Below the pieces are notes generated by a model. The model saw only the letters and a list, made by a program, of their open reading frames with translations. It made no database searches and had not been told where the DNA came from. Shown piece by piece: positions 1,226-57,967 of a stretch of DNA of 64,000 bases (positions are counted from its first letter, which is position 1; each line of letters begins with the position of its first letter). Source of the DNA: Zygnema cylindricum (Eukaryota; Streptophyta; Zygnematophyceae; Zygnematales; Zygnemataceae). Location of the stretch: assembly GCA_037447655.1 (NCBI GenBank), contig JBBHKE010002512.1, positions 58,973 through 122,972 on the forward strand. The letters are read 5' to 3'. The position numbers and the translations under genes are program-made.

Positions 1226-1864
1226 TCATGCCGCATCACGTCGACGCACCAAATTGTATTTATTTGGATGGTAATGGTCCGTAATATAAAGGACGCCACA
1301 CTAATTTACTTATGGGGATATTTCAGTGGGGACAGGACCGTACATATTTTTGTCCGACGCCGTGAAACCCGCAGACTTTTCAGATTCTGTCCGCGAAGTC
1401 GTCAGCCGCCGGAATTTACGCGAACCGATGTGGTTTGCTGTCCGAGAATTTTGGCAAACCGACATACTTCGTTGGCCGAAATTTCCGCGACCAAGTTTGA
1501 ATCGATGTACGGACAGTTGCAAACCGAAACATCAACTCCAAATAATGTCGACGCCAGCGTGGATTCAAACGCAAATCTACGGTCACGAAGGATGTAGACA
1601 AATGGACGATCCGGATGCCAACTGCACCCGTCGACGCTGATTGGTCCATTTTAAGTCATGGATCCTTGGAGGTCGCACGCATTCACATGTAGCGTAGGAA
1701 GGGGTTTTATCCGCAAGTTGTAGATTCTGTAACGTAAGGCATACGATTCTGGTTGCCTATTGGCCAAAATCCAAACTAGGAGAAAACAGCTACATAAAAC
1801 GCATGTATTCGTAGTAAGGTAGACTTTTAGCTGTAGACTTTGTACTTTTAGGTGAAATATGTGC
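1226..1864. other. Unassigned, CG-richer stretch
   Basis: Overlapping short open frames occur on both strands between 1310 and 1650, but none resembles a known protein. The stretch is rich in CG dinucleotides compared with its surroundings. Possibly old LTR or repeat sequence; no ends were found. Confidence 0.25.
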
Positions 1865-2397
1865 ACACAATTTCAAGAGCACGGGAATTCTCTTTTTGGA
1901 AGAGTTAACCTAAACTCTCATTATTTTCTTGTGAAATTGTCAAGATAGATTTAGTGACTATTTTTTTGGTCATTAAGCATTCTGCTGCCTAGCTCGCTCT
2001 CACCTTTCGTTGAAATCTAACTTACAATTTAATCTACGCGGCTCACGCCGAGACCTAGCCGGTTTCCCTTCACTTCTTCTCTCGTCATATCAAGTGGATT
2101 GCTGCTCAGCCTTCTTTCTCAGGCTGTTTCTGAACTTTGGATTACGATTGGACAGTTTTGGGTTTGCTTGTGTGGTTTACTTGGGGATAGTGGATTAGGG
2201 TTGAATTTTCTTATATGTTTTGTGTGTGACCAAATCTGGATATCTAAGATTTGCTTGCAGTTTGCTACATTTGCAGTTTATGTGTTGTGATATTAGGATA
2301 AATCTTTATTTATTGAACTCTTGTAAGGAATATAAACTGACCAAGGAGCCTAGTGGTTATCCGTTGGCTTAATATTCCTGTGCTCTTGAAATTGTGT
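1865..2397. repeat. 533-bp segment with about 25-bp terminal inverted repeats
   Basis: The left end (1865-1890) begins ACACAATTTCAAGAGCAC. The right end (2372-2397) is its reverse complement with about 3 mismatches. The inside is AT-rich and non-coding. This could be a small non-autonomous DNA transposon, but no target-site duplication is visible beside it, so the class is open. Confidence 0.4.
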
Positions 2398-3519
2398 CTT
2401 TTATCTGCAATTTAAGATTGTCTGTTATTCTTCTATTTTCTGCAATTTATCATTTTCAGTTTTGCTCTATTTTCTGCAATTTGAAAATGTCAGTTTTGCT
2501 AAGTTTCTTGATTACTTTTGTCAATTTGTCTGAATGTTTATATTTCTAGATTTCTGCTATGCTTTATTTTCATTTCATTTGTTGTCTAGTTTGTTTTTGA
2601 GTTGTTGAATTTGAGATTGCTGAACTGTCCGGTATCGTTTTCTCTTCGGTCTTCCTACCGGATTAACTCACTCAGAAAACCTATAAAACTTATAAACTTA
2701 TAACAAAATAAAAGATAAAAAAAAATACCTGAATATATATACATTAGGTTGCACGAATTATCACGAAAATTATCATGGTTTTAAAGACGGGAAGAGCATG
2801 GTATAGTGGCGATATGCGTGCCCTAACAGGCTACTAACTACGTTGGTATTTTGAGCTGTGATCTCTTCTCGACAATTCAGAATTGGAGGGAGGTTAGATT
2901 ATCGCTGGGAGACCTTACACATCGCTCCAGGTGAGTAATCGTGTCCTTGTGGTTGCAGGCGCATGATAAGTTGTTAAGCGCGATAACCTAGAGGGGTTAG
3001 GATCCGGCCGAAGGCTGTGCCTTCCTTTCGGCATTGGCATTGTGGTTGTATTTTCTTTAGATCTGACCGTGATTGGTCTTGGAAAGCGACTTCTTGTCTA
3101 TTACACCTGGCCTTGTTGGGCCTAGATAATTTCCTGTTTTATTACATCTGGCCTTGTGGGCATTGGATAGTTTCCTGTTTTACTACATCTGGCCTTGTGG
3201 GCCTTGAATAGTTTCTAGTTTTATTTAATTTGGCCACAAGTGGCCTTGCATAGGTAACATGCTTTTTCTTGGAGTGGCTTGAAGTGACTTATTGTGGTAT
3301 TGCTTAGATCTGGCTGTGAACAGCCTTGTTAGGGGTGTTCACTATTAGACTAACCCCAGTAATACAAAATAGATCAAATCCTTTCGGAGGTGCCTGTTTG
3401 CGTTGGTCATGTTTCTGTGAATTTGAAGACTTCTTGTGTGATTTGATCCGTAGATCTGGCAGTGGGCATATGCCCACTGACCTTGAGTAGGATCCGACAT
3501 CTAGTTACATCCGGATAGG
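2398..3519. other. Non-coding region upstream of retroelement M
   Basis: AT-rich to about 2780, then mixed sequence. It holds a 41-bp tandem repeat (listed separately) and a short hairpin near 3006-3032. It may be leader or LTR sequence of the retroelement starting near 3520, but I find no primer site or LTR end. Confidence 0.3.
3103..3225 (+). repeat. 41-bp tandem repeat, 3 copies
   Basis: Units start at 3103, 3144 and 3185, each near ACATCTGGCCTTGTGGGC followed by a TTTCCTGTTTTA-like tail. Decayed half-units (GGCC-TTG motifs) continue to about 3330. Confidence 0.85.
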
Positions 3520-4422
3520 ATGACCGAACGACTGTCTGATTACATGCCAACTGACTGGAACAATTTACCGTTTCCAGCTGGTACCACTACACGTAGTGGT
3601 GGAACTTTCCGTTCGTCAAATTTTGATCAATCGAATTTATCAAATTGGGTTCCTTTGACATTAAGTCCTTTAATTGAATCTAGAGCGTCCTCTACTCGTT
3701 CAGATTTAACCACAGTCTCATCTTTGTCATCCATTCTTTCCACGCTATTTGTGGAAGAGGTTGATAACGAAAGGGCCCGATTCCGATTTTTTTTCTTTTT
3801 GGTCTCCGTTAGCACCGATTCAGGCTTGGAATTTGAGTAATTCGTGTCTTTTGATGGCCTCCACATCGGAGGGTAATCCTGGTAAACTTCAATTCTGCTT
3901 TTCCGGAATGAAGGATACCATGAGTTTATCTCATTTTCGAATGTTATTCAACACTGAAATGCGAGATCTAGCTTTCCGTTATCAAGATAGATTTGACATG
4001 CGTGTCGCTTTCTCCCTTCTCGGGCGTTACCTTCGCGGGTCCGCCCTTACGTTATATTCCCGCAAGTATGATGGCATACTTGCGATGACTAAATATTCTC
4101 CAAAGTTTGCTAGTACGCCTGAGGTAATAGGTCAAGCATAAATTCCGTATCAAGCTGCTATTTCCGAGGTCTTAGATGCGCATGGCAATGTTCTTTACCC
4201 GGATGTGGCGGAGGTCCCCCACCAATATGCCATTGTAGCCCGAGCCGCCGTCCCGGCACGACCCGGGATGACTATTCCGTTACGAGACCCTCTCACCATA
4301 ATGTTTAATTTGTTACAAGAGGAGTATCGCATGCAAATTCCTGACCAAGTTAAGGAATTAATGAATTTTGAGCGTAAACCGGGCGAAACTGCCCCCACTT
4401 TACGAGCCAGCATGGAGACCTT
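3520..4422 (+). pseudogene. Retroelement M: Gag, first part
   Basis: The first part of a Gag-like protein begins at an ATG at 3520 (MTERLSDYMP). A frameshift occurs in a T run near 3790 and a stop at 4139-4141. The reading continues through 4142-4422 with capsid-like helical sequence such as NLLQEEYRMQIPDQVKEL. It breaks off exactly at a solo LTR (next feature) and resumes at 5799. I did not recognise the family from this part alone. Its retroelement nature follows from the zinc knuckles and protease further along in the same order and direction. Confidence 0.65.
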
Positions 4423-5798
4423 TGAAATTCTATGGGCACCATTGCGACACAGAATTCGCAGATCCAAAGAAGCTAACCTAGATAGTGCCGACTCCAACTT
4501 TATATACACCTAAATTATTGACCCTTTGACAATCAGAACCCCATTAGAGCTTTACCTCTGTGAAATAAGACTTTCTGTGTGCTCAATTCCACCACAGAAT
4601 GCAAAGTTAGAATATGAGTTTTGGATAACATTCCCCACTTTGACTTTCCCTTAGAAATGCAGCCACCCAGGCAGGCAAAGACTCTGACCGACTACACCCC
4701 TGTGTAGCCTGGACTCCCCTGAGTCCGCAGCAAAAAGAATCACTGAATTTGCTCACCTGAGCATTAAGTTATGGCTGACCAAAGTTGGTCCATAAATACA
4801 GAAGCTCTCTGGGAGAGAGGCTGAATCCAAGAATATTCTAAGTCTTAAACTACCTCTCTAAGCTTACTACTAATGTATCTATCCAATCAAATGACTGTAA
4901 GGTACAAGAAAGTACGGGTACCGCTGTACTTCTTGTACGGCCATAACACGGCATGGCCGCTCCGCTGACGCGTGTCAGTTCCTGAACCGAAGTTGCTCCC
5001 TCCATGATACCCGTTTTCCAATCATCTTTCGCCACGTGTCACCCGCTGACATATGCTCAGCAAACCGCCAAAAACCATTCCGGAATCACTGCTTCCAAAT
5101 CTTATCCCTCCACGTGGCGACAGATCATGCCACGTTTTAAAAACGGTACCGTACAGAAAGTACATGTGCCGGAGTACTTTCTGTACGTACATTGTACGAA
5201 GTCGCCATAGTGCCACATTTGTCACTTTCAGATTTGTTTTCTTCCGTTCCGAAAATTCCGTAAGCCCGTATGATGGTGCCACGTGTCATCCGGAGCGGCG
5301 GCGTTTGCAAACTGCCAAATTTTCCTTTCTGCGATGTCGGCGCTAACCGCGGCTGTCCGATTAACATCGTCATTTAAAACAGACGGTCGAAACAAATGTC
5401 CCTACTACTTATTTCGTCCGGTACTAAAAGTACAACTGTTTCTATGCCCTATAGACCGTAATCTAGTTAAATGGGAAAACCTACGTGTATATGTTTAAAT
5501 AAATATCAAACCCTATATTCCTTAGCACATGTTCTAGACTAAACGGTCAAAGCTAACGGCTACTATGACAGACGGCAGGTACCAGGATCAAATCCTGCGT
5601 CCGTCATACCTTTTGGTAAATCTACTCACATTCTGCTCCCTGTCTCTCTAGCCAGCTTAGGCAGCCATGGCTCTAGCTCCCTCTTCAGCCTCCAGTGACT
5701 ACAACAAGTGTGGGGGCTTGGAGAAGAAGTTTAGAGGCAGACTGCCTCTGCTATTTTCCTATCCTAAAATAGACCTAGAAAATACTCAAATATCAACA
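4423..5798 (-). mobile_element. Solo Copia LTR, family X
   Basis: A 1,376-bp LTR runs from TGAAATTC (4423) to TATCAACA (5798), with TG...CA ends. It is flanked by a perfect 5-bp duplication ACCTT (4418-4422 and 5799-5803). It matches the LTR fragments at 44273-45344, 46906-47360 and 50143-50703. No internal sequence is left, so it arose by LTR-LTR recombination. It carries the shared tRNA-like hairpin (about 5545-5612) and several GTAC motifs (about 4895-5190). The 186-codon ORF starting at 5667 begins in the LTR and is not a gene start. Confidence 0.95.
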
Positions 5799-6204
5799 AC
5801 CTTGCGGGAAGCGTTACCCGATTTGATATCAGATGCCGAAGCTGTCCAGAAGTTTGTGGGACAGTTTCCTATCCAGTCAAAGGAATTTATTCAAAGCCAT
5901 CTTACCCAAACATATGGTCTTAAATTTACGTTCGACCAGGCAGCTGAATACGAGATGAAAAATTGTTGGTGGGAGGCCCACGATCAACCAAAAGCCCCTC
6001 AAAAAAAAACTAACCCTTTCAATTTCCCAAATCCTCATAACTTGGGGCCAAATAATCGGCTACCACGGGTCCCAACCATGGGGACCCCACCAAGTCAACC
6101 ATCCAATCGGATTTGTTTCCGATGTGGCAAGACCGGGCATGATGCTCGGATGTGTCTGGATAAATATGCGACCTGTACACACTGCAAACAGACCGGCCAC
6201 TTTC
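5799..6204 (+). pseudogene. Retroelement M: Gag, second part with CCHC knuckles
   Basis: Gag resumes in frame after the solo LTR (LREALPDLISDAEAVQKF). It runs through a basic, proline-rich linker to one full zinc knuckle CFRCGKTGHDARMC (about 6114-6155) and a second that begins CTHCKQTGH. The second knuckle lacks its last cysteine because another solo LTR inserted at 6205. The missing cysteine codon follows that insertion at about 8510, giving the expected Cx2Cx4Hx4C spacing across the two parts. This shows that the parts belong to one gag gene, which binds genomic RNA during particle assembly. Confidence 0.85.
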
Positions 6205-8496
6205 TGTTGTTCTTTGGTCTAAAATAGACCGCAGAAGCCACCCAAACTATCATGCAAAAGCTAAGCAAAAATAGGTCAACGAAATATCATATGAAATGCA
6301 TCCTCCATATACGTACACAGACGCAACAAACAACATTTAGGGTTTCATGGAATAATCAACATAAATAAACCCTATGACAACATCTAAGGTTTGATGGAAT
6401 AATCGACATAAACAAACCCTAGGACAAATGCATAAACAATGCATATCAACCAAATATAAAATAACATAAATAAATAATAAAACAAATGCATCACACATAA
6501 ACAAGAGTATAATCAAAGTATAATCAAATAATCATTATATCATTCAAAGTGCATGACCTAATCGACAACCCTAAAATACTACAACTTTGGTCCCCACTTT
6601 ACTAACCAGCATTGATGATTAATTCCTAACAAAGCTCATTCCTATATATACACTTGTGAGCTGTCAATGAATTGCTACATGTCAAAATAGCCAACGTACC
6701 TTCCACTAAGTAGTATTACATCATGAGAACCTATTACGACAAATAATCCTAACTGTAAGTGTACACCTGAAAGTCAACCAATCATAAGCGTACACTTTTC
6801 TGTAAGTACGATATCGTACACACACAAATTAAACTATCAAAACCATAATTGATCACTTAAATGAAAATGTCATAATCAATACTAAATTAATAATACACAT
6901 AAGACAAAATAATGTTGTATCAAATATTTATACTAGTGTTGTGTATCGGTAAAAAAATTATCGCGATAACACCGATACCGATAGTTATCGGTTATCGAAC
7001 GGTCAGAGGTCCCGATATATCGGTCTGAGACCAACAAATTCCATATCGACGATAACTTAAAAAATTATAGTATGCATACAATAGTACTTTATAACATACT
7101 GTATTATATTATTTACTTTATATAGCGTGGCATGCCACATATAAGAATCTGCTACGTCTTTGTTTAACTGCGATTTATCACGGACAGCGCAACACATAAA
7201 CGTTGTTCGGTTAACTGAAAAGTAGTTTTACGGAAACTTACGCAATTGTATCGACAAACTGGTGAACATGGAACGGTAAAAGTACAACGGACGCAAAATA
7301 ACATTCTGCACGCCGCCGAAATCGAACGGACAACTTGGATGAGAAAATACGAGCGGACGGCCAACGTGAGCGCCGACATCCCGGAATGGCTCTTTTGGCA
7401 GCTTATGCCAAAATGCCAACAAATTGACACGTGGCAGGTCCCAAGTGGATCCCAAGGAAGAAAGGGACAAAGCCATGGCGCCGGATGTGAATGGTACATC
7501 GTTTTTAATGGATCCGTTCCAAAACCGTACTGATTTCATGGCGGCCTCTGTACTTTTTTGTGTAATTTTTGTTCAATCTGATTGGTACACCTCAGTAGAT
7601 AGGGTTTGTTAGAAGGGCGCGCCCTGGGGAATAAAACGTACAGTTGAGTGTACTAGCCGTACATTTATCTGTACGTTCCGTACAATTATCGCCGATAGTT
7701 ATCGATATCGGTGTTATCGCCGATAAAACCGATAAATATCGGGTATTTATCGGCGATTATACCGATAGCCATATATCGTACCAATATATCGATTATCGGG
7801 TACCCGAAAGAAGGTCCATATCGGTTATCGGGAAATCCTTACCGATACACAACACTAATTTATACCGACGCGTCCGCAAAATACGCGTCATATGCGACAA
7901 CTCGCTTAGTCACTCGTAGATAATTCCACGTAGTGAACCGACATCGTATATGTACGGTCCACCTAATTAACACGTCATCAAACAATATGATCCCTTGGAA
8001 ATATCGGCGGACGTCGTCCGCCCTCCACGTGTACCTCGAACAACTTGCCGAAATCAATTCGTACGATCCAAATCCTGTCCGTACCGAAATCACGTACTTC
8101 GTCATAAATGCGCCTTGTCGCATTTAAGGTACACGTCATTTTCGATAAATGCATGTCGCAATAAGCGACAACTTAAAGTACACCTGTCAAATACGACGCT
8201 CCGTACCGGCGGCGTCCCATGTAATAAATTTCATCTGTCGCATTATGTTTCATACGTGCGACGTACCATTTTATCTTCGTCGATTATCTCACGTCGGATT
8301 GCTTCGCGATCCGCCGTCCATTTCCTCTCACATTTCGCGCCACTCAATTACTCCATTAATTTTACGTGTACATTTAATTCCCCGATCCATAAATCCTTTC
8401 GAACCTCCACACTACATCGCGTAAATGCGCACGCACGCGAACACGCGCACGCACGAAACGCTACATACGCACGAAACTAAGATTTCAAAAACAACA
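6205..8496 (-). mobile_element. Solo LTR, family K (D-like), carrying a hAT insertion
   Basis: Ends TGTTGTTC... (6205) and ...AACAACA (8496) are flanked by a perfect TSD CTTTC (6200-6204 and 8497-8501). The inserted hAT plus its duplication (932 bp) leaves an LTR of about 1,360 bp. About 330 bp at the left end (6205-6546) is repeated in inverse orientation at 63370-63716. The right third resembles the LTR of element D (32600-32833). There are no internal genes. It interrupts the second zinc knuckle of the M gag. Confidence 0.9.
6934..7857. mobile_element. Non-autonomous hAT-type element
   Basis: A 924-bp element has 19-bp inverted termini, TAGTGTTGTGTATCGGTAA at the left and its reverse complement at the right. 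It is flanked by a perfect 8-bp duplication ATTTATAC (6926-6933 and 7858-7865). An 8-bp TSD and TAGTG-type ends are diagnostic of the hAT superfamily. The ends are filled with TATCGG/CCGATA repeats (6950-7050 and 7690-7850), as expected for subterminal transposase-binding sites. No transposase is present, so it would need an enzyme supplied from elsewhere. A truncated inverse-orientation relative lies at 46352-46905. Confidence 0.93.
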
Positions 8497-8501
8497 CTTT
8501 C

Positions 8502-9082
8502 TGTATCGTTGTCACATCAAAAACCCTAAATTTTTATATCAAAATCAGATTCGAAATAGTGGAATACCCGTTAGATCTACCAAAGTAGTCCAACCAGTTA
8601 TAGAGCCAGAAAAAAACTCTCCACCTAAAATGTCTCGGAGAGAAAATGAAAAAGAGGAAATGCAAACTCAAATGGCCACTATGATCAAAGACCAGTTTGC
8701 AGCCCTTATGGTTCAAATGAAACCGCCGACTCACTTAACCGGTATGGCTTTTACAGTTGTCCACCTTTCCACGCTAGCTAGTCGAGTTTTACGAGATTCA
8801 ACCATTCAAAAGCGGGCAACCACGTTTGACAAGGGGACAGTTGATCACAATCGCGAGGGTAAACAATCTAGCACCTGTCTACCATTATCATTTTCCAAAG
8901 AAACTTCAACCAATTTGCCCGAAACAACTTCCACCATCATGGCTGAAACACTCACTATTTTGGACCGCTCTATTCATGACAGCCATAGGGTTAAGGAAAG
9001 ATTATGTTTTTTGTCTACTATGATTTCTGATGCACCCAACCTAAAAACTACTGTCACATCCATGCGATTTGCAACATCATAG
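8502..9082 (+). pseudogene. Retroelement M: post-knuckle Gag/linker region
   Basis: The open frame continues the M gag after the solo LTR. It includes the last cysteine of the second knuckle, a lysine/proline-rich stretch and a glutamine- and methionine-rich helix (KEEMQTQMATMIKDQFAAL, about 8650-8706). It ends at a stop at 9080-9082, just before the protease segment. No catalytic motif is seen. Its role is inferred from position only. Confidence 0.6.
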
Positions 9083-9091
9083 GATTTACAA

Positions 9092-9517
9092 ATGAACCGT
9101 AATCTTGACGCTCTTAGGCCTATCTCTACCGACGAGCGTAGTTCACTTGACCCACACATCAGTTTTCTAGATAATGGGAAGGGTGCATTTTCAGTCAATG
9201 GTGTCATTCCGTCATTACCACTTATGGACACCGGTGCGAAACCAGTTATTTTGGGGTCATCTTTTGCACTGAAACTAGGTCTGACAGTTGATAAACTTCA
9301 GTCCACTTCCACACGTTTACTCACCTCAGCGGGAACAACCGGACTAGTTTTGGGCATTACGAAGGATCCACTCTGTTTTAGGTTTCAAAATGGTACAAGT
9401 TCTGATTTTGCAGAAGTTCGTGCTCACGCATTGGTCACCAAATGTAATGATTACGAGTGTTTATTGGGGCAAGATGTAATTTTCAGAGTAGAAGGCGTCG
9501 TTGATATGTACGATTAG
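9092..9517 (+). pseudogene. Retroelement M: aspartic protease domain
   Basis: A retropepsin-like segment of 141 codons. It shows the catalytic LPLMDTGAKPVIL motif (DTG loop, about 9217-9255), a flap-like glycine-rich segment (TSAGTTGLVLG) and a closing ECLLGQDVI strand that matches the (A/L)LG-x-D region of Ty3/Gypsy-type proteases. In LTR elements this enzyme cuts the Gag-Pol polyprotein. Stops at both ends (9080-9082, 9515-9517) separate it from the neighbouring segments, so the original polyprotein is broken or used recoding. Confidence 0.75.
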
Positions 9518-9852
9518 ACTTTTCGTACCGTCCTACCAATTATCCGGAAAAGAAAATCTGTCTCCCTCTAATTTCAGCACGCCAACCCATACCCATTATG
9601 GCTCACGCAACCCAATCTGTCCCTGCTTATTCCGAAAATTCGGTGGGATTTGAAAATTTTCAATCTCTTTTCGTAAAGGAAATTTTGCCCGACAGTCCTT
9701 CTTTGGCTGAACTTTTCGATAATCCAGGTTTTATTATTGATTCTCGCGAGTTTGATCACATCTATAAACACACCTTTCAGATTCCTTTATCGCGGGTTCC
9801 ACCTCTTCCTCTTATTTCTGTAGATCCTTCCGGTTTTTTTCCCATTAATTAG
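9518..9852 (+). pseudogene. Retroelement M: linker between protease and methyltransferase
   Basis: An open frame from about 9535 (an ATG at 9598) to a TAG at 9850-9852. It contains acidic, aromatic-rich sequence such as SLFVKEILPDSPSLAELF and a proline-rich end. I do not recognise a domain. The frame is the same as that of the following methyltransferase segment, separated only by the TAG, so the two were probably one protein. Confidence 0.5.
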
Positions 9853-10005
9853 AAACCAGTTCAGGTCACACCTTATCAAGATGGTCTAGTCATTTTAGAC
9901 CTATTTGCAGGCATAGGTACCTCTCTACTCTCATGCCTTCACAACGGATTACTTATCAAATACTATTACTCAGTTGACACTAACCCTTTAGTTCGGAAAG
10001 CATAA
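9853..10005 (+). pseudogene. Cytosine-5 DNA methyltransferase fragment (motifs I-II) in retroelement M
   Basis: Fifty codons read VILDLFAGIGTSLLSC, then YYYSVDTNPLVRKA and a stop at 10003-10005. The first block is motif I of C5-cytosine methyltransferases (the FxGxG loop that holds S-adenosylmethionine). The second fits motif II, with the acidic residue (Asp in SVD) that binds the cofactor ribose. The family transfers a methyl group to C5 of cytosine in DNA. The later motifs (PC catalytic loop, ENV, QRR) are absent because the element is truncated here. It lies in the same strand, order and frame as the Gag and protease of M, which argues for a retroelement-borne enzyme rather than a host gene. 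A generic Rossmann methyltransferase cannot be fully excluded on 50 residues. Confidence 0.62.
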
Positions 10006-10194
10006 ACTGAGCCTCCTAGCTTCCTCTCTAACCCTACCTTGATTTTTCTTATGATATGTTTATTTGCTGCTTGCTACTTGTACATAATTATTCTCACTTG
10101 TTTTCTGAGATTATCATTACTTTCTTGCTTATTTCGTTATCATTTATCTTTCACCTGGTTGTGTTGCATGTTTATCATAATCTTTGTCACATGC
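10006..10194. other. AT-rich junction, no feature
   Basis: Sequence between the truncated methyltransferase and the minus-strand Copia gag. There is no LTR end or coding similarity; the 3' part of the Copia element and the rest of M have both been lost here. Confidence 0.3.
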
Positions 10195-35555: not shown

Positions 35556-36603
35556 TGTAGAAACTAATGGTTTTAAAGTATTTTCTAGGTCTGAATAGAA
35601 ATAAAGAGCCGAGGCAGTCTACCTCTAACTTCTCTCTCCAACTCTCAAACTAGTCGCAGTCACTGAGAAATTGGAGAGGAAGCTAGAGCCATGGCTACCT
35701 AGGCTATCCTGAGGTTTACGGGAAATTTATATTAGTTTAAGGGATTATTTACTAAAAGGTATGTGCCGGCCACAGGATTCGATCCTGGTACCTGCCGGCC
35801 GACAAACAGTAGATAGCCGGTAGCCTTAGCCGTTAAGTCTAGCAGTAGTATTACGTATTATATAGTACAATAATTAATTAAACATTAATTCGTAGGTTAA
35901 ATCATTTAACTTTAATTGTTAACGGGATACATAGATCTGGTAGTGTAAAAGTACGAATTGCGGTACGGATAAGAAATCAATATCGCGCATTGATTTCGTA
36001 AGCGAAACAAATACCGCGCATGTATTTATTATGGCTACGATCAAATGCGAGTTTAATCGGACGGCCGGAATTAGCGTCGAGATCGCGGGAGAAGAATTCG
36101 GCGGTTTGTGGGCATTGCCACATCAGATGACACGTGGCGATTTTACATTGGAGGGCGACATCTCCGAGAATTAAAAGGGCGAATCCGTACATACCACATG
36201 TGGACATTTAGGCCATGTCGTACAGTTTCCGTATATAAAGTACACCGGCAGCTGTACTTTTGCGTACAGAATTGTATTCTTATTGGCTCCGTACATCAGT
36301 AGATAGAGTCTGTGAGAGAGATAAGACTTGGAAAAATTAGAAGATATGACCCTCGCTCCCAGAGAGCTTCTGTACAAAAGGTCAACTTTGACCCTCCATA
36401 ACTTACTGCTCAGGGGAGCAAATTCAAAGATTCTTTTTGCAATAGACTCAGCGAAGTCTTCCCTTCACAGGGGTGCAGGTGGTCAGAGTTTTTGTCTGTT
36501 AAGGTGGCATTTGTTTTTGCAGAAACACAAAGGGGTCAGAGTTATCCTAGAGGCTTCTTGGAAGTTGTCCACTCTGAGGACTTATGGAGGTCTCAGAGTT
36601 TCA
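35556..36603 (+). repeat. R: 5' LTR
   Basis: TGTAGAAACTAATGGTTTTA... to ...CAGAGTTTCA, 1,048 bp. GTAC block at about 36218-36300, tRNA-like hairpin at 35763-35845. It matches 13024-14075 rather than 40946-42002. Confidence 0.95.
35763..35845 (-). repeat. tRNA-like hairpin module shared by LTRs
   Basis: On the minus strand: TAGACTTAACGGCTAAGGC (A-box-like), about 35 bases, then CCAGGATCGAATCCTG (B-box-like, 5-bp stem and 7-base loop like a T arm), inside an outer GGCCGGC/GCCGGCC stem. Copies sit in every LTR family: about 5545-5612, 13795-13870, 16845-16915, 22257-22330, 25687-25760, 29870-29955, 33660-33740, 41164-41245, 43430-43515, 45075-45150 and 47085-47165. The acceptor stem of a real tRNA does not form, so it is not a tRNA gene. 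Confidence 0.7.
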
Positions 36604-38158
36604 GGTTATGGGCCCACCCTCTAGGGTACCAATCTTTAATGGAACTGGCTTCATATACTGGGAAAGTATGATGATAGGAGCTCTATGCGGAAAAAGGTTT
36701 TGGGGGATAGTGAGTGGACGATTGGGGCGTCCATTAAGTCTTGGAATCCCTCCAGGGTTTGGAGGAAGCAGATTCACCAGGAAAAGGGATCCACCTTCAA
36801 CAGATGAGACAACGGAAGGAGAGGTGGTGAACAAAGGAAAGGAGAAGGAGACGACCACACCAATAGCAACTGGTTCGGCATTCATGTCACCTATTCCGAG
36901 GAACAAGGAGAATGATACTGAAACCTGGGACTTCAACAATATGGCGGCAAAGCACTTCATCCTACACCATCTCACTCAAGGACTTGCTTGTCCTCATTTG
37001 CAGGTAGAAAGGGCATCCGATCTTTGGATGGCTCTCATAGAGATGTACCGAAGTGGTACGATTCAGCAACAACAGTTGGCTGATAAGAAAGTTAAGGAGT
37101 ATGTATACAAAGGGGGAAATATGTTGGATTTTTGCAATGAGCTTGCTACACTCTTTATAGAGCTAGAAAGTGCGGGAATAGTTTTTAGTGAAAATGAAAA
37201 GGTTAACTGTTTACTAATGAAGTTACCCGATGAGTTCGAAAACATAGTCAACCGTGTGCAGGACTTGCCGGACTCAAGGTGGATATGGAACTCAGTGGTA
37301 GGGATGATTCTTGTTCAGGAGAATACGATTGAGATCCGAAGGGGAGGAAAGAGTGACCAAGCCTTGGCAAGTGCGACCGATTGGAGGAAAAAGGATTCGC
37401 GGAAACCGGTCGGAAACAATGGGGTGAGGGAGCAGAAAAATCAGACCGACGAGTTTGGACCAAGGGCTCCCAAAGGTTTATGTCATTTTTGTAAGAAACC
37501 TGGGCACTATATGGCAGAGTGCACTAAGATAACCGAGCTTCGGTTAAAGGAGGGGCAGACCGGTGGTACCCCGAGAGGAAAGAAAAAGGCCCTTGTGACA
37601 CAGGTACATGAGGCGGAATCCGAGGACGAGGACGATGAGCTCTTTTTGGATGAGGAGTTGGAGGCGAAAAACGAGGTCGAAATTCCACGAAGGCAGAAAT
37701 GTGCTTACGGTGGATTGAAAGGTGAAGCAGGCTGGATTGTAGATTCAGGTGCCTCCATGCACATGTGTAAGGATAGGCACCTGTTCACTAAGATAAGAAA
37801 TATTCCCACCGTAGAGATAGAGTACGGGGATGGGAGGATAGTCACCACTACTCTTGTAGGATCGGTAGATTTAAAAGTGTTAGTAGAAGGAAAGACATCC
37901 ATAGTAACATTCTCCGATGTGTTGTTTATTCCGGAGCTGAACAAAAACCTCATCTCTACATCCGTATTAGATGATAAGGGTTTTTTTACTAGCACTAGGG
38001 AAGGAGTCTTTACTGCTAGTTTTGAGGAGGATGTCTATTTCATTGCTGAGAAAGGTAGCCATGGGATGTTTAGGCTGGTTTTAAGTAATGAAAGGAAGAA
38101 ACTTTATTATGCTGGTGTCCATGATATTATGATGTGGCATAAGAGGCTTGGCATGTGA
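36584..38158 (+). pseudogene. gag: R: Gag and protease
   Basis: Five hundred and twenty-four codons. An ATG at 36584 lies in the LTR and a second in-frame ATG (36608-36610) lies in the primer site. Residues 110-250 are the UBN2/Gag capsid region (ACPHLQVERASDLWMALIEM), 300-313 the zinc knuckle CHFCKKPGHYMAEC, 340-370 an acidic linker, and 387-391 the protease DSGAS. The following 100 residues are the protease body and GAG-pre-integrase (MMWHKRLG). Gag packages the RNA; the protease cuts the polyprotein. The frame is lost at about 38150, where one G of a GGG run is missing compared with B. Start choice between the two ATGs is uncertain. Confidence 0.9.
36604..36616 (+). promoter_or_regulatory. 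R: primer-binding site (half-tRNA type)
   Basis: GGTTATGGGCCCA starts at the first base after the LTR. It is complementary to the anticodon stem-loop of initiator tRNA-Met (TGGGCCCATAACC), not to the tRNA 3' end, as in Drosophila copia and yeast Ty5, which prime from a cleaved half tRNA. The same site lies beside the LTRs of B (17669, one extra G), L (24907-24919), D (31676-31688) and G (50130-50142), and in mutated form of E (29093-29105) and N (11248-11260). Confidence 0.9.
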
Positions 38159-39456
38159 ATCTAGACAAATTAAGAGAAATGAAAAAGATGGGAGTGGTGG
38201 AAGGGATTAAGTTCAGTGAGAATGATAATATAAGTGATTGTAGTGGATGTGCTCAAGGTAAAACACACAGATTACCTTTTCCTAAAACAACCACCTATAA
38301 GGGAGAAAAAATTCTAAATCTAGTACACACAGATATTTGGGGACCGGCTAAAGTGCCCTCACCGAGGTGGAAGAGATTTATGATGACTATCACTGATGAT
38401 TGGTCTCGGTATTCCCGAGTGTATTTTTTGAAAAACAAGTCCGAAGCTCAGGATTGTTTTAGACAATATAAAGCATGGAGCGAAAAACTCCATGAAACTC
38501 CAATCAAGAGAATACGGAGTGACAATGGTGGAGAGTATACTTCTAACCAGTTTGAGGATTTTTGGAGGGAAGATGGAGTCCAACACCAAAAGACAATCCC
38601 AGAAAACCCGGAACAGAATGGGGTGGCTGAATGGTTAAATAGAACACTAAGTGATAGTGCTAGAAGTATGTTGTCAGATAAGAAGATAGGAAAAAGGTTT
38701 TGGGCAGAAGCAATGAACTGTGCTAATTACCTCAAAAATAGAGTTCTTACTTCAGCTATAAAAGATCAAACACCTTATGAGAGATGGACAGGCCGAAAAC
38801 CGGACATATCTCGCTTAAAGGTTTTCGGCAGTCAAGTATTCAGTCTAGATACTGATCGGTCCAATTGGAAGCTAGATCCTAAAGGAAAACCGGGATACTT
38901 ATTAGGATATGATGAGGATGTTAAAGGATATAGAGTTTATGATCTAAAAAGGGAAGATATAATCTTAGTAAAGCATCTAGTAGTTATGGATGAAGGAAAG
39001 TCTGTGGATCCCTTCAAATATACGAAGTCAGTAAAAATCAGATTTGAGTCAAAAAATTCCGATGACTTTGAGCTTCCTAACTATCCTGGTTTTAGAGAAG
39101 ATGACATTCTTGCAGGTACAAATCAGACCGAAAAGGACTCGGCTGTGGAAACTCCAGTGACAACTCTACCCGAAGCGGAAGACGTGGTGGAAATTGATTC
39201 GGAATCAAGGGATAGGGGAGAAGCCGAGTTTGTTCGAAAGAATCCACGAGAACCATCTATACCGGCCTCAGATTTTGAGGGGGGGAGGAGAAGTAGCAAA
39301 AGACTGCAAGAAAAACAGGTTAATAACAAGGTAACTAAACTATTTCATCAAGATGAACCTCAAACTTATCGAGAGGCTATGACTTGCCCAGAAAGAAACC
39401 GGTGGAAGACAGCCATCAATGAGGAGATGGCCTCAATAATGGCAGCCGATACTTGA
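38155..39456 (+). pseudogene. R: integrase and linker
   Basis: Four hundred and thirty-three codons in one open frame. The HHCC finger ends with CSGC (29-32). The catalytic triad is D60 (HTDIWGP), D123 (RSDNGGEYTS) and E159 (GVAEWLNRT), with DD35E spacing. A GKxxGYLLGY-type C-terminal domain is followed by a long acidic linker. The integrase inserts the cDNA into host DNA, making 5-bp TSDs here. It is separated from Gag-protease by a one-base deletion and from RT by TGA at 39454-39456, where the relatives have TGG (Trp). Confidence 0.92.
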
Positions 39457-39462
39457 GAGCTG

Positions 39463-40932
39463 GTGGATTGTCCACCTAACCGAAAACCAATCGGTTGTAA
39501 GTGGGTTTTCAAATTAAAACTGAACCTAGATAACACAATCGAGCGGTACAAGGCCAGATTAGTGGCAAAGGGATTTACACAAAAGGAGGGAATTGACTAC
39601 GAGGAAACCTTTGCCCCAGTGGTCAGATTTCCCTTCGTCCGCATACTTCTCAGTTTAGCAGCAGCGGAAGACATGGAAGTGCACGAGATGGACATCAAGA
39701 CAGCCTTTTTGCATGGAGAATTGGAAGAGGAGATTTTTATTCGACAACCCGAAGGTTTTGTGGAGGAAGGAGAGGAGAGTAAGTTATGTCGGCTGATTAA
39801 ATCTCTTTATGGTTTGAAACAGGTGCCTCGACAATGGAATAAGAAGCTTGATGAGTTTCTTACTGGTTTGGGATATATTCGGATCAGCTCAGATCACTCA
39901 ATCTATGTTTTCGAAGATGAGGAAGGTTTTATATTTATTGCAATTTATGTTGATGATTTGTTTGTTTTAAGTAAATCAATGGAAAAAATTAACAAACTGA
40001 AAACCGATCTTAAGGGGAGATTTGAAATGAAGGATATGGGGGAAGCAAAATATATTTTGGGAATTCAAGTAGAGAGAGACCGAAAAAGAAAAATTATAAG
40101 ACTGACTCAAAAGGAAGCAATAGGGAACATGCTTGAAAAATTTCAAATGGATAAAGCTAATAGTTGTACAACTCCAATGGAGTTGAAGAGGGGAAGTGAG
40201 GGGAGTGAGGAAGAAGGAGTCATAGTCTTAGACGAGGAATTATCTCCTGAAGAACAGAAGTTCATGCAGACTATTCCTTATAGGCAAGTAGTGGGAAGTC
40301 TAATATATTTTATGAATTGTACCCGGCCGGATTTAGCTGCAGCTGTAGGAGTAAGTCTAAATGCTCCCACTAAGAATGATTGGGAGGCAGCTAAAAGAGT
40401 TCTTAGATATTTGACAGGAACTAGGGATCTATGGTTGCATTTGGGTGGGGAGAATACTGACATCACTACTTGGAGTGATGCCAGTTATGGTGATGCTCCG
40501 ATGAGGAGATGCACTTCTGGATATGTATTATATGTGAATGATGAGGCTTGTTGTTGGAGTAGCAAACAACAAAAAGTTATTGCTTAGTCCACCATGGAGG
40601 CTGAGTATATGGCCTCTTGCTTTGCTGTAAAAGAATTGATGTGGGTCAAGTCTTTGCTTGGCGAGCTTGGTCACCTTAAGAGTGGTGTGCAATTTTTTTT
40701 TTGTGATAAACAGGCAGCAATTGCTATTTCTGCCAATCTTAAACATAATTTTAAAGCTAAACACATGGACATCAGATTCAGCTTTGTTACAGAGAAAGTA
40801 GAAAACAAAATAATCAGTTTAGAGTACAGACCAAATAGTGAGATGGTAGCAGATATGATGACCGAACCTGTGCCTTCCCCTAAACTATTTTTTTGCAGGG
40901 AGAAGTGCGGTCTGAAATTAAAGATTGACTAG
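39463..40932 (+). pseudogene. R: reverse transcriptase and RNase H
   Basis: The open frame 39463-40587 holds RT: fingers GCKWVFKLKLN, catalytic D77 in [26 protein letters not shown] (162-165), then the connection and RNase H start (TTWSDASYGD). A TAG at 40585-40587 replaces a Gln codon (CAG in B). The frame then continues 40594-40932 with MEAEYMASCFAVKELMWVKS to the natural end. A 9-base deletion near 40350 removes three residues found in B. The enzyme copies element RNA to DNA. As read it would be truncated. Confidence 0.93.
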
Positions 40933-45344: not shown

Positions 45345-45524
45345 CATTACACGGGCATGTACCCTGTCCAGTTTAACATGCCCTTTTTTGATGCCGTTTT
45401 TTGATGCCTGTTTTTCATGCGCGTTACAAAAAACACACCCGTACCTTTTTCCTGGAAGGTCCTGTACCTTTTCTAGTAGTCGTTCGTAGAGTCAGTTGAT
45501 GGGAACATTATATTCTATCTGTTG
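45345..45524. other. Short spacer, no feature
   Basis: Contains TGATGCC- and CATGCCC-type short repeats (45370-45420) and leads into the minisatellite. Nothing codes. Confidence 0.3.
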
Positions 45525-46083
45525 TACGGCAGTTTATACTGCCGACGGATGGCAACGTTACATTACGCCAACAGTACGGCGGTCTGCACATCGACGATTG
45601 GCAATGTTACATCACGCCAACCGTACGGCGGTCTTCACAACGACGGTTGGCAATGTTACATTACGTCATCTGTACGGTGGTATGCACAGCGACGGTTGAC
45701 AATGATACATTACGCCAGCGGTACGGCGGTCTTCACAGCGACGGTTGGCAATGTTACATTACGCCATCCGTACGGTGGCCTGCACAGCGACGGTTGACAA
45801 TGATACATTACGCCAGCGGTACGGCGGTCTATATAATGACGGTTGGCAAAGTTACATTACGCAAGCCGTACGGCGGTCTGCACAGCGACGGTTGGCAATG
45901 TTACATTACGTTTTCCGTACGACGGTCTGCACAACGACTGTTGGCAATGCTACATTACGCCATCCGTACGGCGGTCTGCACAGCAACGGTTGGCAATGTT
46001 ACATTACGCCATCGTATGGCGGTCTGTACTACGACGGGTGGCATGTTACATTGTGCCAGCGGTACAGCCGTCTGTACTGCGGA
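45525..46083. repeat. 49-bp minisatellite, about 12 copies
   Basis: Units start with GTACGGCGGTCTGCACAGCG at 45525, 45574, 45623, 45672, 45721, 45770, 45819 and on at 49-bp steps to about 46062. Each also holds ACGGTTGGCAATGTTACATTACGCC (given here in two parts: ACGGTTGGCAATG and TTACATTACGCC). As 49 is one more than a multiple of three, all frames are cycled every 147 bp and long overlapping open frames appear on the plus strand. They are products of the repeat and do not look like genes. Confidence 0.95.
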
Positions 46084-52943: not shown

Positions 52944-55900
52944 TCAAGACGGGACCTCTATATTATTGTCTCTCCAATACCTCTGTAAAAATTCAGAATT
53001 TTTATCCTCTAGAGTCAACTCATCCTCAGGCCTCCCTAGATAATGCACTTGCCAGAATATAGTATCTCCGACCTTGAACCGTTGACCAACCCAATCTATT
53101 ACCCATCTGTGTACTTCAGGTTCTATAATTACTGAGGGATCCAATTCCAATTCTCCTTCGGTTGGTCGAAGATTCGCTGGTTTCAATTGGCTAATGTGTA
53201 TCACTGGATGAATTTTTGTTGACGCCGGAAAGTGCAATTTGGCAGCAACTGACGATATCATCTCGATTACAGTAAATGGTCCAATGAACTTAGGAGCAAA
53301 TTTCCCCGTAGGATCCGATTGTCCGTCGATCTTGCACCTGTAATGAGTTGTAGAAAGCCAAACCTTGTCACCTGTGCGTAACACCCAATCACCCCGTTTG
53401 CGGTTAGCATTTAATTCTTGCCTCCTTTGTGCCTCTACTAATGCATCACGGACAGTTCTCCAAACTGTTTGAAAATATTCCCAAAATTCCGTTCCTGAAC
53501 CCCTATTCTCTTGTGTGATCCCTGTTATTAAGTCTAATGCTTCTCTCGGTTGGTATCCGTATGCAACTTCAAATGGTGAGAATCCTGTACTAGCATGTTT
53601 ACATGAATTGTATGCAAATTCCATTAATGGCAGTTTGGATTCCCATGTGTTTTGAACTCCACTGCAAATAGTCCTAAGCATTTCTTCCAGTGTACGATTC
53701 ATCCTTTCTGTTTGTCCATCTGTCTGAGGATGGTAAGAGGTACTCATTTTTAATTCAGTACCTAAATTTTGCTGCAATTCTTTCCAAAATGCAGATGTAA
53801 ATTTAGAATCCCTATCACTGACTATAGACAGGGGAACACCATGATGTCTGACCACATTGTCAAAATATAACTTTGAAATATCTACAACTGAATGAGTAGT
53901 TTTGCAAGGGATAAATATTGCCATTTTACTGAACCTATCGACTACGACCATGATACTGTCATTCCTTTTAGATGTAGCAGGCAACCTAACAATAAAATCC
54001 ATACTGACAGATTCCCACGGTCTTTCGGGATTATCCAAAGGTTTTAAGAGACCTTTAGGTTTTTGGGTACTAGGTTTACTCTGTTGGCAAGGGACACAAC
54101 TTTCTACGTGTTTTGACACCTCTTTTGCCATCCCAGGCCAAAACAATCTACTTTGCAACCGACTAAGGGTTTTATCTCGACCTAGATGTCCTAAATGCTC
54201 ATGAGCTTCCCGTAAAATTTGTTTTCTTAAGTCTCCGACTTCAGGAATGCATAATCTATCCCCAATTTGCAAATACAGTAAACCAGCCTCTAGTCTAAAA
54301 TTTTTGACATGCCTCTCATTCAATGGGTCAGAATTTCCTCCCGAAATATTTTTGCAAATCACAGCAAAATAAGGATCTTTATCATAACCATTTCTAACAG
54401 TATCTAAAAACAATTCATCCTGAACCATAACACTTATTTCAAAACATCTACTTAAAGGATCTGCAACTACATTTGTCTTCCCAGGAATATGTTTGACATT
54501 AAATTTGAAATATGCTAATTTTTGCATCCACCTAACCTGTCTGCCAGTCATAATCTGTGCATCACTTAATCTCTGCAAATAAGAAAGGGCTTTATTATCA
54601 CAGTGAACTGTAAATTCTTTATTATGCAAATAACATCGCCATTTCACCAATGCATGTACAATTGCAAGTAATTCTTTTTCTTGTGCTGTATAGTTCTTTT
54701 CAGCATCATTGAATTTTCTGGACTCAAAAGCAATAGGATGAAAGTGTTTGCCGACTTTTTGACTTATGACTGCACCTAGACCTTTGTCAGATGCATCTGT
54801 AGTAATCAGAACTTCAAATTCCCCAGCAGGGTCAGGATACACTAGTGTAGGAGCAGAGGTCAACTTCCCTTTTAGTTCCTCGAATGCTCTCTCTTGATCA
54901 GCTCCCCACGCAAACATCTCCTTTTCCCGAAGCAAATCCGTCAAAGGTGCAGCGATCATACTGAAGTTCTTTATAAATTTCCTGTAGTAAGTGGCCAATC
55001 CCAAAAATGATCTAACTTCCGTGACATTAGTAGGTTGCTTCCAACTTTGGATTGCAGTGATTTTGGATGGATCTGTTTTAACACCTTCCCCACTAACTAT
55101 ATGTCCCAAAAATAATTGTTCACTTTTAAGAAAGCTGGATTTTGACAATTTTCCGTATAATTTTCTTTCTTTTAACCTTTCTAACACTTTTCTTAAATGA
55201 ATTACATGTTGTTCTCTAGATTCACTGTAAATTAGAATATCATCAATAAACACCTGAACGAACTCATCTATGTAATCAGAAAAAGTTTGGTTCATTAATC
55301 TTTGGTAAGTAGGCGGTGCATTCGTTAAACCGAATGGCATTACTATCCATTCAAAATGACCCACCCTAGTCCTGAAAGCAGTTTTATCAACATCCCCAAT
55401 TCTGATTGGCACCTGATTAAAGCCACTACGCAGGTCAATCAATGAAAATACTTTAGCACCTTTTAAACGATCTATCAAATCAGAAATTAAAGGTAACGGA
55501 TACTTATCCTTCACCGTAATCTTGTTCAGACTACGATAATCGACACACATTCTCAACGTTCCGTCCTTTTTTTTGACAAAGAGAACTGGTGCTCCATACG
55601 GTGATTTGCTGGGCTGAATATGTCCTTTCTCTAAGAGTTCTTTGATCTGTTTCTTTAACTCCTCTTGCTCAAAGAAACTGTGCTTATAAATTCCTGTGAC
55701 AGGAGGATTACATCCAGGTTCAAGGTTAATAACATGTTCTACATCTCGGGAAGGTGGCCTTCCTGAGGGTAAATCACTAGGAAAAACATCTTGAAATTCA
55801 AAAATCAAATCTTTAACAGCAACATCAGATGTATTAATGTCAGTTACAAAATCATATTTTAGTTTTTCAAAAGTTTTAGTGGTGTCTGATTTAGAGATGA

Positions 55901-56657
55901 CATCAATGTTATTGTTTTCTCCCCCTCTTTCATCAGTAACTGCCTCAGTTACTAACAACAAGAAAGCATGATTTGTTTTATCTTTTAAGTGCTTTTTAAA
56001 TTGTTTAGCAGATATTAAACCTTCCACTCCTAATCTGGTTATATTGTTTATATGATTCCTATGCAATTTCTTAGGAGATAATGCTTGCAAAACCTTCCAA
56101 CCGTTTTCAGACTTCACTTTTAAGGTGTTAATTTCCCAATTAATTTGAGGATTATGTTCTGTTAACCAAGGCTTTCCCAGAATTAGTTCCTCACTTCCTA
56201 AATTCATTATTTCACACACAACTTTCATTTTATGACCCTGAATATCCACTTCAATTGTGTCAGTTTGTAAGTCTAATGTGGACTTATTACCATTTGCCAC
56301 TTGAACATGTAAAGGTTTTTCCCTTATGACAGTAGGAATTTTATTTTCCTCTACAAACTTATGTGAAATAAAATTATGTGTGGCACCTGAATCAACCATT
56401 ACTTTCAACGGTTTTCCTTCCACTAGTGACTCGAATCTAATCAAACTGTGTCTGGTGTCATCATTACTTAACTGTCCTAACATAGGTCTGTTGTTGAGAA
56501 TTTCATCAGAAGGATTCTTTAAACTATGCAGTGTAGTTAGAATCATAATAAATTCAGCTATCCTAACTTTTCCATTCATTAATTTGCCCTCCAAAGTTAA
56601 CTCTTTAACTTCTGGATCTGGTTGACTCAACTGAGGACTTTCAGTCAGTCCTTTCCG
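52944..56657 (-). CDS. pol: Gypsy Pol: protease, RT, RNase H, integrase, chromodomain-like tail
   Basis: An uninterrupted frame of about 1,238 codons entered by -1 frameshift from gag. The codon at 56630 is TTG, so there is no Met start there. Numbering from that TTG: protease [10 protein letters not shown] (DSG at 80-82); RT with YPLP (377-380), [10 protein letters not shown] (Asp 399) and a FIDD box (461-464); RNase H starting [11 protein letters not shown] (610-620); integrase zinc finger H810/H815/C845/C848 and catalytic D878, D939, E975 (DD35E). The last 50 residues ([20 protein letters not shown]) resemble a diverged chromodomain, which in chromoviruses guides insertion to chromatin. 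All catalytic residues are present. Confidence 0.96.
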
Positions 56658-57967
56658 TTTCCCACTTCTTGGGCTTCCTGCTCAGCTAGGTATAATGCAA
56701 TATCCTCTTGGAGACCTTCATTTACTTCGGCTATTTTTAGAGAACCTTTATCTGTACAGTCTTTAGCGTAATGATCTGGACCTCCACATTTGAAACAAGT
56801 GACTTTCTTTTTGGGTTTTATGCACTCTCTACTAAAATGTCCCTCCTCTCCACAGTTATAACAGTTAATCTTTTTCAGTTGTGCACACTCAAATGCCCTA
56901 TGACCCTTTTTCTGACAAATAGTGCATGTGGGGATGGTAAGGTTAGACTTCTGGGCATTAATGTTTGGTTTAGGACTTTTAATGTACCCCCCTCTATTGT
57001 TAAATTTATTTCCTGCATTAACACTATGTCCACCCCTTTGATTTCCCCTGAAGATATTTTGCCTATTCACCAGACCAGCATTCAGACCCTCTTCAACAAA
57101 TTCCTCATCATCCCACTGTGATACTTCATTTAAATTACCCCTTACTGATCGTGTTTCCCGATTATACCCCAACTGATCCTCTAATTCCAATGACTTATCT
57201 TGTAATTCTTTCAAATTATTAAAATTTTGATGTTTTAGCTCTGATTTCAGTACAGGATTCAAATAGTTCAAGAAATGCAATTTAGCCATTTCATCAGTCA
57301 AACCTATGACATGAATACTAGATGAGTCAAATTCTACAATATAATCCTTCACAGATCCAGTCTGCTTACAATTCAACCACTTTTCTTCCATTCTGGATTT
57401 AAAAGTGACAGACAAGAAACGCGATTTGATCGCGGTTTTAAAAGTTTCCCAATCAGCATTATCAGGAATCAATTTAGACCTTCTCTGAGTATAATACCAA
57501 ATTTGAGCATCGCCTTTCAGACAGCTAACTGCAAAAGAAGTATAATCATCGCGATCACAATTCCTAGATTCCAAATAATACTCCATATGAAAAATCCAAG
57601 CATCCAACTCATCAATCTTCTTACCATCAAACGATGGTGCCTCACTAATAGACAATTTCAGATCCCTTATCTTCTTAGGTCTATCATGATCATCCTCCCT
57701 AAAATTGGCATTTCTTTTACTACTTTCACCCTTTTGGTCATTAACATCATTCTTTGCCTGAATTAAATTAATGAGCTCATCCAATTTCTCATTTGAAACA
57801 TTCCCATTTTCTTTAACAACTTTCAATTCACTTTTCAATTCGCAAATTTGTTCATCCACAGCAGCAGAATGATTATTAAATTTTTTTACCAATTTTACAG
57901 TTCGTTTCTTCAACACATTCAAAGCATTCTCCATTTCACGTTTCCATGCAGAATTTGCCATTATCAC
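56645..57967 (-). CDS. gag: Gypsy Gag with three zinc knuckles
   Basis: Four hundred and forty codons from ATG (57967) to TGA (56645). The N-terminal 100 residues are basic and helical (coiled-coil-like). Residues 105-270 hold the retrotransposon Gag capsid domain ([20 protein letters not shown], then W...FK..I..RFL and [17 protein letters not shown]). The C-terminal part has three CCHC knuckles: [14 protein letters not shown] (348-361), [14 protein letters not shown] (369-382) and [14 protein letters not shown] (391-404). It forms the particle and binds RNA. The last codons overlap the frameshift site. Confidence 0.96.
56657..56663 (-). promoter_or_regulatory. Programmed -1 frameshift heptamer GGGAAAC
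   Basis: In the gag frame the codons are GTG-GGA-AAC, so the heptamer is correctly phased (X-XXY-YYZ), four codons before the gag stop. Slipping back one base leads straight into the open pol frame (AAA CGG AAA GGA CTG). GGGAAAC is a known retroviral slippery site. A downstream structure was not examined. Confidence 0.82.

Follow-up and report, generated by a model that had tools for sequence, protein, structure and literature searches.

Retrotransposons that carry a cytosine methyltransferase of their own have been described in dinoflagellates and a charophyte alga (PMC5890265), as the first-pass annotation of the locus studied here had correctly noted. SymbioDIRS-Dnmt3 and SymbioLINE-Dnmt of Symbiodinium are of this type, and KnitGypsy-Dnmt3 of Klebsormidium nitens combines Gypsy domains with a DIRS-like repeat layout (PMC5890265). 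In yeast, the SymbioDIRS-Dnmt3 domains gave de novo CG methylation; the K. nitens Gypsy-Dnmt3 and SymbioLINE domains gave none, a null result that the authors regarded as inconclusive because human DNMT3B failed too (PMC5890265). Methylase-bearing Ty3/Gypsy and DIRS elements have also been reported from algae and other eukaryotes, with none in tracheophytes according to that account (PMC6338049); like the element described here, they join a DNA methylase to a Ty3/Gypsy or DIRS element, and that account pools adenine and cytosine methylases. The streptophyte and dinoflagellate cases are repeated in a further paper, which names them Copia and DIRS (PMC12344493).

The element described here, from Zygnema cylindricum, belongs to a rare kind that is already known, that of KnitGypsy-Dnmt3 (PMC5890265). 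It has the Gypsy domains, the DNMT3 in the Pol frame, the A-B-A-B repeats and the purifying selection that define this class, and the K. nitens element, as described in that paper, is like it in having Gypsy domains, an intronless DNMT3 in the Pol frame, unrearranged motifs, purifying selection and a DIRS-type repeat layout. The key residues of the K. nitens element are described as conserved in that paper; in the Zygnema element motif IV of the methyltransferase reads WEC, a possible difference between the two. The two differ in that the Zygnema genome holds 469 first-look candidates (150 of them scored) and its element makes 4-bp duplications, whereas K. nitens is described as having fewer copies than Symbiodinium (PMC5890265). 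SymbioDIRS shares the A-coding-B-A-B repeats with the Zygnema element, but the Symbiodinium elements carry a tyrosine recombinase or an endonuclease where the Zygnema element has a DDE integrase (PMC5890265). What differs from, or adds to, the known kind is the retention of WEC across the places read, the existence of WPC relatives, the occurrence of split repeats together with 4-bp duplications, and the number of copies.

Identity of the segment and full copies in the genome

The starting point was a segment at 9853–10005 of a 64,000-nt stretch of Z. cylindricum DNA (the window), which had been annotated as a cytosine-5 methyltransferase domain. Its plus-strand frame translates as KPVQVTPYQDGLVILDLFAGIGTSLLSCLHNGLLIKYYYSVDTNPLVRKA followed by a stop and does show, as annotated, motif I and a sequence resembling motif II. 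Taken alone, the 50-aa piece gave no PF00145 hit in a Pfam search, where the sole hit was TRM5/TYW2 (E 0.041, below the cut-off), and no solved structure matched it better than E 0.86, the PDB hits being two chains with E close to 1; the piece by itself was therefore dropped as proof of a C5 methyltransferase. The HMM check proposed for 9535–10005 was run on 9853–10002 and 9505–9849 separately and yielded no PF00145 hit in either. A reading as a TRM5 tRNA methyltransferase was dropped as well, since its score lies under the cut-off and the full copies supersede it.

The genome searched comprised 352.8 Mb in 2689 contigs, including C1892, which carries the window, and it holds at least 150 methyltransferase places (469 first-look candidates and 150 scored, the window being one of the 150), counts that are lower bounds. 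The other 149 scored places matched the piece with 62–86% identity (E 8.1e-23 to 2.6e-15), so the segment is not a chance match. The ten 8-kb loci with the longest open frames among the scored places (L031–L040) were scanned for motifs in frames of at least 200 aa. CCHC and DLFAGIG were found in 10/10, the DTGA protease motif and YIDD in 8/10 each, and an HHCC-like pattern in 7/10, the order of the parts, as far as present, being Gag-protease-methyltransferase-RT-integrase. In L031, the longest copy, Gag (with two CCHC), protease, methyltransferase, RT/RNase H and DDE integrase follow one another in a single 2395-aa frame, and its methyltransferase domain is 78% identical to the window piece; in L032–L040 the parts found are distributed over one to three frames. 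Pfam searches with three pieces of L031 returned PF00145 (E 3.9e-12; 46.7 bits against a cut-off of 22), RVT_1 (3.4e-30), RT_RNaseH (6.9e-35), Integrase_H2C2 (1.9e-15) and rve (4.2e-12), with zf-CCHC and protease scores below the cut-offs and no tyrosine recombinase among the hits. L031 therefore has the PR-RT-RNase H-integrase order with a DDE integrase that defines Ty3/Gypsy elements. The search for full copies in gag-PR-DNMT-RT order, suggested in the first-pass annotation, thus succeeded with a significant C5-MTase hit, and the proposed membership in a class of methyltransferase-bearing retrotransposons is borne out by matches to PF00145 (3.9e-12) and DNMT3A (2.9e-10) inside a gag-protease-RT-integrase frame.

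A host gene or an unrelated Rossmann methyltransferase merely lying near a retroelement would be compatible with the weak TRM5/TYW2 score and the poor PDB matches (two chains, E about 1) that the piece gave when taken alone. This explanation is refuted by the PF00145 hit of L031 and by the one frame in which its methyltransferase lies together with Gag, protease, RT and integrase. Wherever the parts can be read, the remaining nine 8-kb loci agree with L031 in their order, and practically no chance is left to this explanation. The C5-type identity of 9853–10005 follows from these full copies elsewhere in the genome, not from a PF00145 hit of the piece, and the other copies show the segment to be the surviving N-terminal end of a predicted DNMT3-type methyltransferase in a Ty3/Gypsy-type polyprotein. 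Outside the genome, none of 39 pattern stretches in a viral contigs database and none of 44 in a genome contigs database was confirmed as a relative.

Structure and decay of the window copy

The window copy follows the full copies in collinear order between about 1634 and 10005 (Table 1).

Table 1. Features of the methyltransferase-bearing element copy in the window
Feature	Position	Strand	Basis or remark
Probable remnant of left terminal repeat (A)	1634–1810	+	77.5% to C2577 5′ region
Element 5′ leader and gag start	2021–3589	+	L037 and L039 matches
Broken N-terminal Gag	3541–4420	+	tblastn, L031 residues 40–112, 154–246, 252–342
Insertion within gag	4423–5797		Collinearity with L031 interrupted
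Gag with CCHC knuckles	5799–6206	+	L031 residues 342–480, 68% identity
Second insertion, 2.3 kb, between CCHC part and remaining Gag	6208–8485		Collinearity gap
Gag end and aspartic protease	8486–9523	+	L031 residues 475–818
Linker preceding methyltransferase	9520–9852	+	In-frame TAG (9850–9852) at its end
N-terminal end of probable DNMT3-type methyltransferase, cut off	9853–10005	+	Motif I DLFAGIG and motif II region

Near its left end, 1653–1725 is 76.6% identical to the A1 repeat of the C1344 copy, and the leader is matched by L037 at 2021–2081 and 2316–2402 and by L039 at 2628–3589 (81%). Parts of the first insertion recur at many places in the window, and it is probably a solo LTR, which we infer to be of the copia type. 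One CCHC knuckle was matched by pattern at 6114–6155, and the DTGA protease motif lies at 9221–9238 on the plus strand, in a protease that scored E 5.5e-5 with PF13650 (24.2 bits, cut-off 24.3). A CCHC Gag and a DTGA protease are accordingly found upstream on the same strand and in the order originally annotated, although the second insertion parts them so that they do not adjoin. The annotated sharing of one frame is not literally true of this copy, which uses frame 3 for the CCHC stretch, frame 2 for DTGA and frame 1 for the methyltransferase piece; the change from protease to methyltransferase falls near 9520, and the TAG comes just before the segment. Across that change, 9520–10002 aligns to L031 residues 818–978 (63%).

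The L040 copy, in C82, is 90.6% identical to window 8495–10007, where its match stops, and no element parts were found in the window downstream of 10005. Truncation before the catalytic motif, as first annotated, is real, but in other copies that motif reads WEC and not PC. Two insertions, frame changes, a TAG and the cut near 10005 mark the window copy as a dead relic.

Matches to RT and integrase at 54.1–55.5 kb on the minus strand were considered as the remainder of the element and rejected, as they belong to another Ty3 element with no PF00145 hit. That Ty3/Gypsy element (52944–57976, minus strand) has a 443-aa Gag frame with CCHC knuckles and a 1245-aa PR-RT-RNase H-integrase-SH3 frame. 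The window also holds nested copia elements, comprising a long copy at 36578–40587 (plus strand), with gag, integrase and RVT_2 over three frames, and partial copies at 13–44 kb, as well as a direct repeat array at 45445–46062 with 49-bp spacing and nine registers.

A probable DNMT3-type domain with an altered motif IV

Among solved structures, DNMT3A was nearest to the L031 domain (E 2.9e-10; DNMT2, E 0.59). A profile of eight stop-free domains, one truncated at 301 aa, likewise found DNMT3A first in the PDB (8.8e-10), then DNMT3C and DNMT3B, with HhaI at 8.6e-4 and DNMT2 at 2e-3. In this alignment the motifs follow the order I, IV, VI, VIII, with an ENV-type VI and an RxR-type VIII; the domain is thus not rearranged as in DRM. 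Motif IV reads GWECQG, in which the catalytic Cys is retained and Glu takes the place of the preceding Pro, so that the WEC family lacks the Pro-Cys of motif IV that marks C5 methyltransferases. Residues were counted at 59 distinct places (60 loci minus one duplicate, the truncated place of the window included), a non-random set picked by similarity to the 50-aa query and by long frames, of which 55 were readable at motif IV. The catalytic Cys was present in 53/55; the residue before it was Glu in 53/55, Lys in 2/55 and Pro in none. The motif VI Glu was found in 50/53 readable places and the two motif VIII Arg in 43/52 and 39/52.

Synonymous sites were saturated in 23 of the 28 pairs among the eight domains (pS 0.75–0.82), with pN at 0.11–0.17, and the five close pairs gave dN/dS values of 0.17, 0.27, 0.38, 0.40 and 0.42. 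The choice of stop-free sequences favours low pN, but we judge the gap between pS and pN too large to come from that choice alone; given this saturated synonymous change with low pN, the motif IV Glu has been retained over a deep divergence. Many copies have stops or gaps within the domain, as would be expected if the methyltransferase were a neutral passenger with no effect on the element. Against that stands the contrast between saturated synonymous change and low pN between subfamilies, even though the eight sequences were chosen stop-free, and we consider a neutral passenger very improbable.

The motif IV Pro has been called invariant and hydrogen-bonds the cytosine amino group (PMC2965745). 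DNMT3L and plant DRM3 are, like the WEC domains, DNMT3 relatives with an altered motif IV, and rice OsDRM3, which has the Cys without the preceding Pro, is predicted to be inactive (PMC2965745). Compared with the description of these proteins, the WEC family keeps the Cys and the motif VI Glu, and its motifs are unrearranged, unlike those of DRM (PMC2965745). Masc1/RID, considered as a possible parallel for the change in motif IV, is not one, as its PCQ is conserved and it is motif VI that is altered. Because the active site is otherwise kept, the WEC domain would be either an enzyme with an altered contact to cytosine or a dead partner of the DNMT3L/DRM3 kind.

If the latter, catalysis would have been lost and the domain would persist for binding or as a scaffold, the role suggested for DNMT3L and DRM3; it might then direct host DNMTs or the WPC enzymes found in related elements. 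The absence of the Pro from all 55 readable places, the lack of Pro-Cys in DRM3 and Dnmt3L together with the predicted inactivity of OsDRM3 (PMC2965745), the presence of WPC relatives in the same genome, and the lack of observed activity when the Gypsy domain of K. nitens was assayed in yeast, a result that its authors regard as inconclusive (PMC5890265), all point this way. However, motif I, the Cys and the motif VI Glu are largely conserved, as are the two Arg of motif VIII, and in a dead paralogue relaxation at the Cys would be expected. Loss of catalysis is thus a possible reading, although not the one we favour.

An altered motif IV could also mean an altered substrate, and RNA methylation has been raised for the LINE-type elements (PMC5890265); the enzyme might then methylate RNA, either the genomic RNA of the element or a tRNA, rather than cDNA. 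With DNMT3s as the nearest solved relatives and DNMT2 much weaker in both searches (E 0.59 and 0.002), this appears improbable.

WPC relatives and a possible origin of the WEC family

A PF00145 search of the genome (123 scored of 782 candidates) led to loci of a different kind. All four that were read (L071–L074) have GWPCQG, and their domains are 40–42% identical to the WEC domain; L071 matched DNMT3A at 4.7e-14. In the WPC copy in C1374 the methyltransferase frame continues into RT and RNase H. The RT of C1374 is 58% identical to that of the WEC copy in C1344, and the two are 38% and 41% identical, respectively, to the RT of the methyltransferase-less Ty3 element of the window. This pattern, with one outgroup and unrooted, fits a methyltransferase gained once by a common ancestor of the two families, one of which later exchanged Pro for Glu. 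L074, in C412, represents a further methyltransferase lineage, with WPC and 58% identity to the WPC domain of L071 and C1374.

Terminal repeats and integration

Two copies traced from end to end, in C1344 and C1063, have the layout A1-coding-B1-A2-B2. The C1344 copy (85514–96154; 10,641 bp by coordinates) has TG..CA ends and is flanked by TTGG on both sides; its A1 of 931 bp is 100% identical to A2, and its B1 of about 243 bp is 99.6% identical to B2. As its terminal A repeats are identical, it is a recent insertion. The C1063 copy (86801–98098; 11,298 bp by coordinates) has TTGT on both flanks, with A1 and A2 99.6% identical over 1212 bp and B1 and B2 99% identical over 191 bp. Target duplications of 4 bp were therefore found in two of the three copies checked, the third being C783. 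In that copy (L048 1449–1697) A1 and a single B were found, A2 was not, and the flanking 4 bp are unmatched, a state that perhaps arose by recombination between B1 and B2. In C1407, B1-A2-B2 is present, and no A1 could be identified within the sequence examined. Tandem repeats of about 62–67 bp were observed in L031 at 156–289, just after the left terminal repeat, and in L044 at 844–1164, beside the C1407 copy.

The end-to-start junction GCACGACA-GC-TGTCATGCCG, with at most one mismatch, occurs 287 times in the genome, against once for a reversed control. Among the 100 junctions listed of the 287, one lay 3.5–6 kb downstream on the same strand for 15 of the 150 methyltransferase places, and none lay upstream or on the opposite strand of any of them. 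None of these 100 accompanied any of 20 PF00145 places that were taken, by profile range, to be of the other kind and of which four were read as WPC.

The element departs from the plain LTRs of Ty3/Gypsy, its ends being A1 and B2 and its repeats being split as A-B-A-B. Of the DIRS characters it has the split direct repeats but not the tyrosine recombinase, rve (4.2e-12) being in the same frame. A G run immediately precedes B1 and looks like a plus-strand primer site. If it acts as one, synthesis of the plus strand would begin at B1, which is not the integrated end (A1), a discrepancy that would be resolved if a circular intermediate were opened at the B-A junction.

Self-methylation as the working interpretation

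By precedent, and with a probability that we put at about one half, the built-in enzyme would methylate the cDNA of the element, the exchange of Pro for Glu not abolishing catalysis. The methyltransferase would most likely travel in the particle with RT, new cDNA would be methylated before or during integration, and the copy would arrive already marked. The Glu probably alters the contact with the base, or the rate, while catalysis is retained. Our confidence in an active enzyme is lowered, and that in a dead partner raised, by the absence of yeast methylation with the domain of K. nitens, whose element is the nearest relative known. The replacement of a Pro described as invariant and the predicted inactivity of OsDRM3 (PMC2965745) also weigh against this interpretation, as do the sub-threshold protease and CCHC scores of L031.

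A more far-reaching version seems to us rather unlikely. It would have a DDE-integrase lineage that replicates with DIRS-like split repeats and carries an active Glu-for-Pro DNMT3-type enzyme, with a new recognition or sequence preference for self-marking. The B1-GC-A2 junction (..ACA-GC-TGT..) would then supply both termini and may be the substrate of the integrase in circular cDNA.

Chlorophyll-binding protein genes

Independently of the element, at least 68 matches to chlorophyll-binding proteins were found in the genome (150 scored of 160 candidates). The best hit of L078 among solved structures was CP24 (5.7e-90), a protein that is not known outside streptophytes, which by itself makes a charophyte alga or land plant the probable host. 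Of the next three, one was a CP24/Lhcb6 and the others were chlorophyll a-b binding proteins not so named; multi-domain 9vfj antenna chains aside, later hits were at 3.9e-34 or weaker. The Rubisco large subunit, used as a further host marker, had 0 matches. L076 and L077 match major-type chlorophyll a-b binding proteins, 9vfj first. LHCII-like genes are clustered in C519 (one read) and, by score, in C2590, and short chlorophyll-binding genes, which we take to be possibly ELIP-like, are clustered in C610 and C1077.

Significance

With its 469 first-look candidates, domains of two kinds or more (WEC and WPC) and one recent copy, the Z. cylindricum genome is a large natural experiment. It presents an element that combines a DDE integrase with split repeats and with short target duplications, an arrangement normally associated with tyrosine recombinases. 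Whether an element marks its own cDNA, and what role the ‘invariant’ Pro of C5 methyltransferases plays, can now be put to the test.
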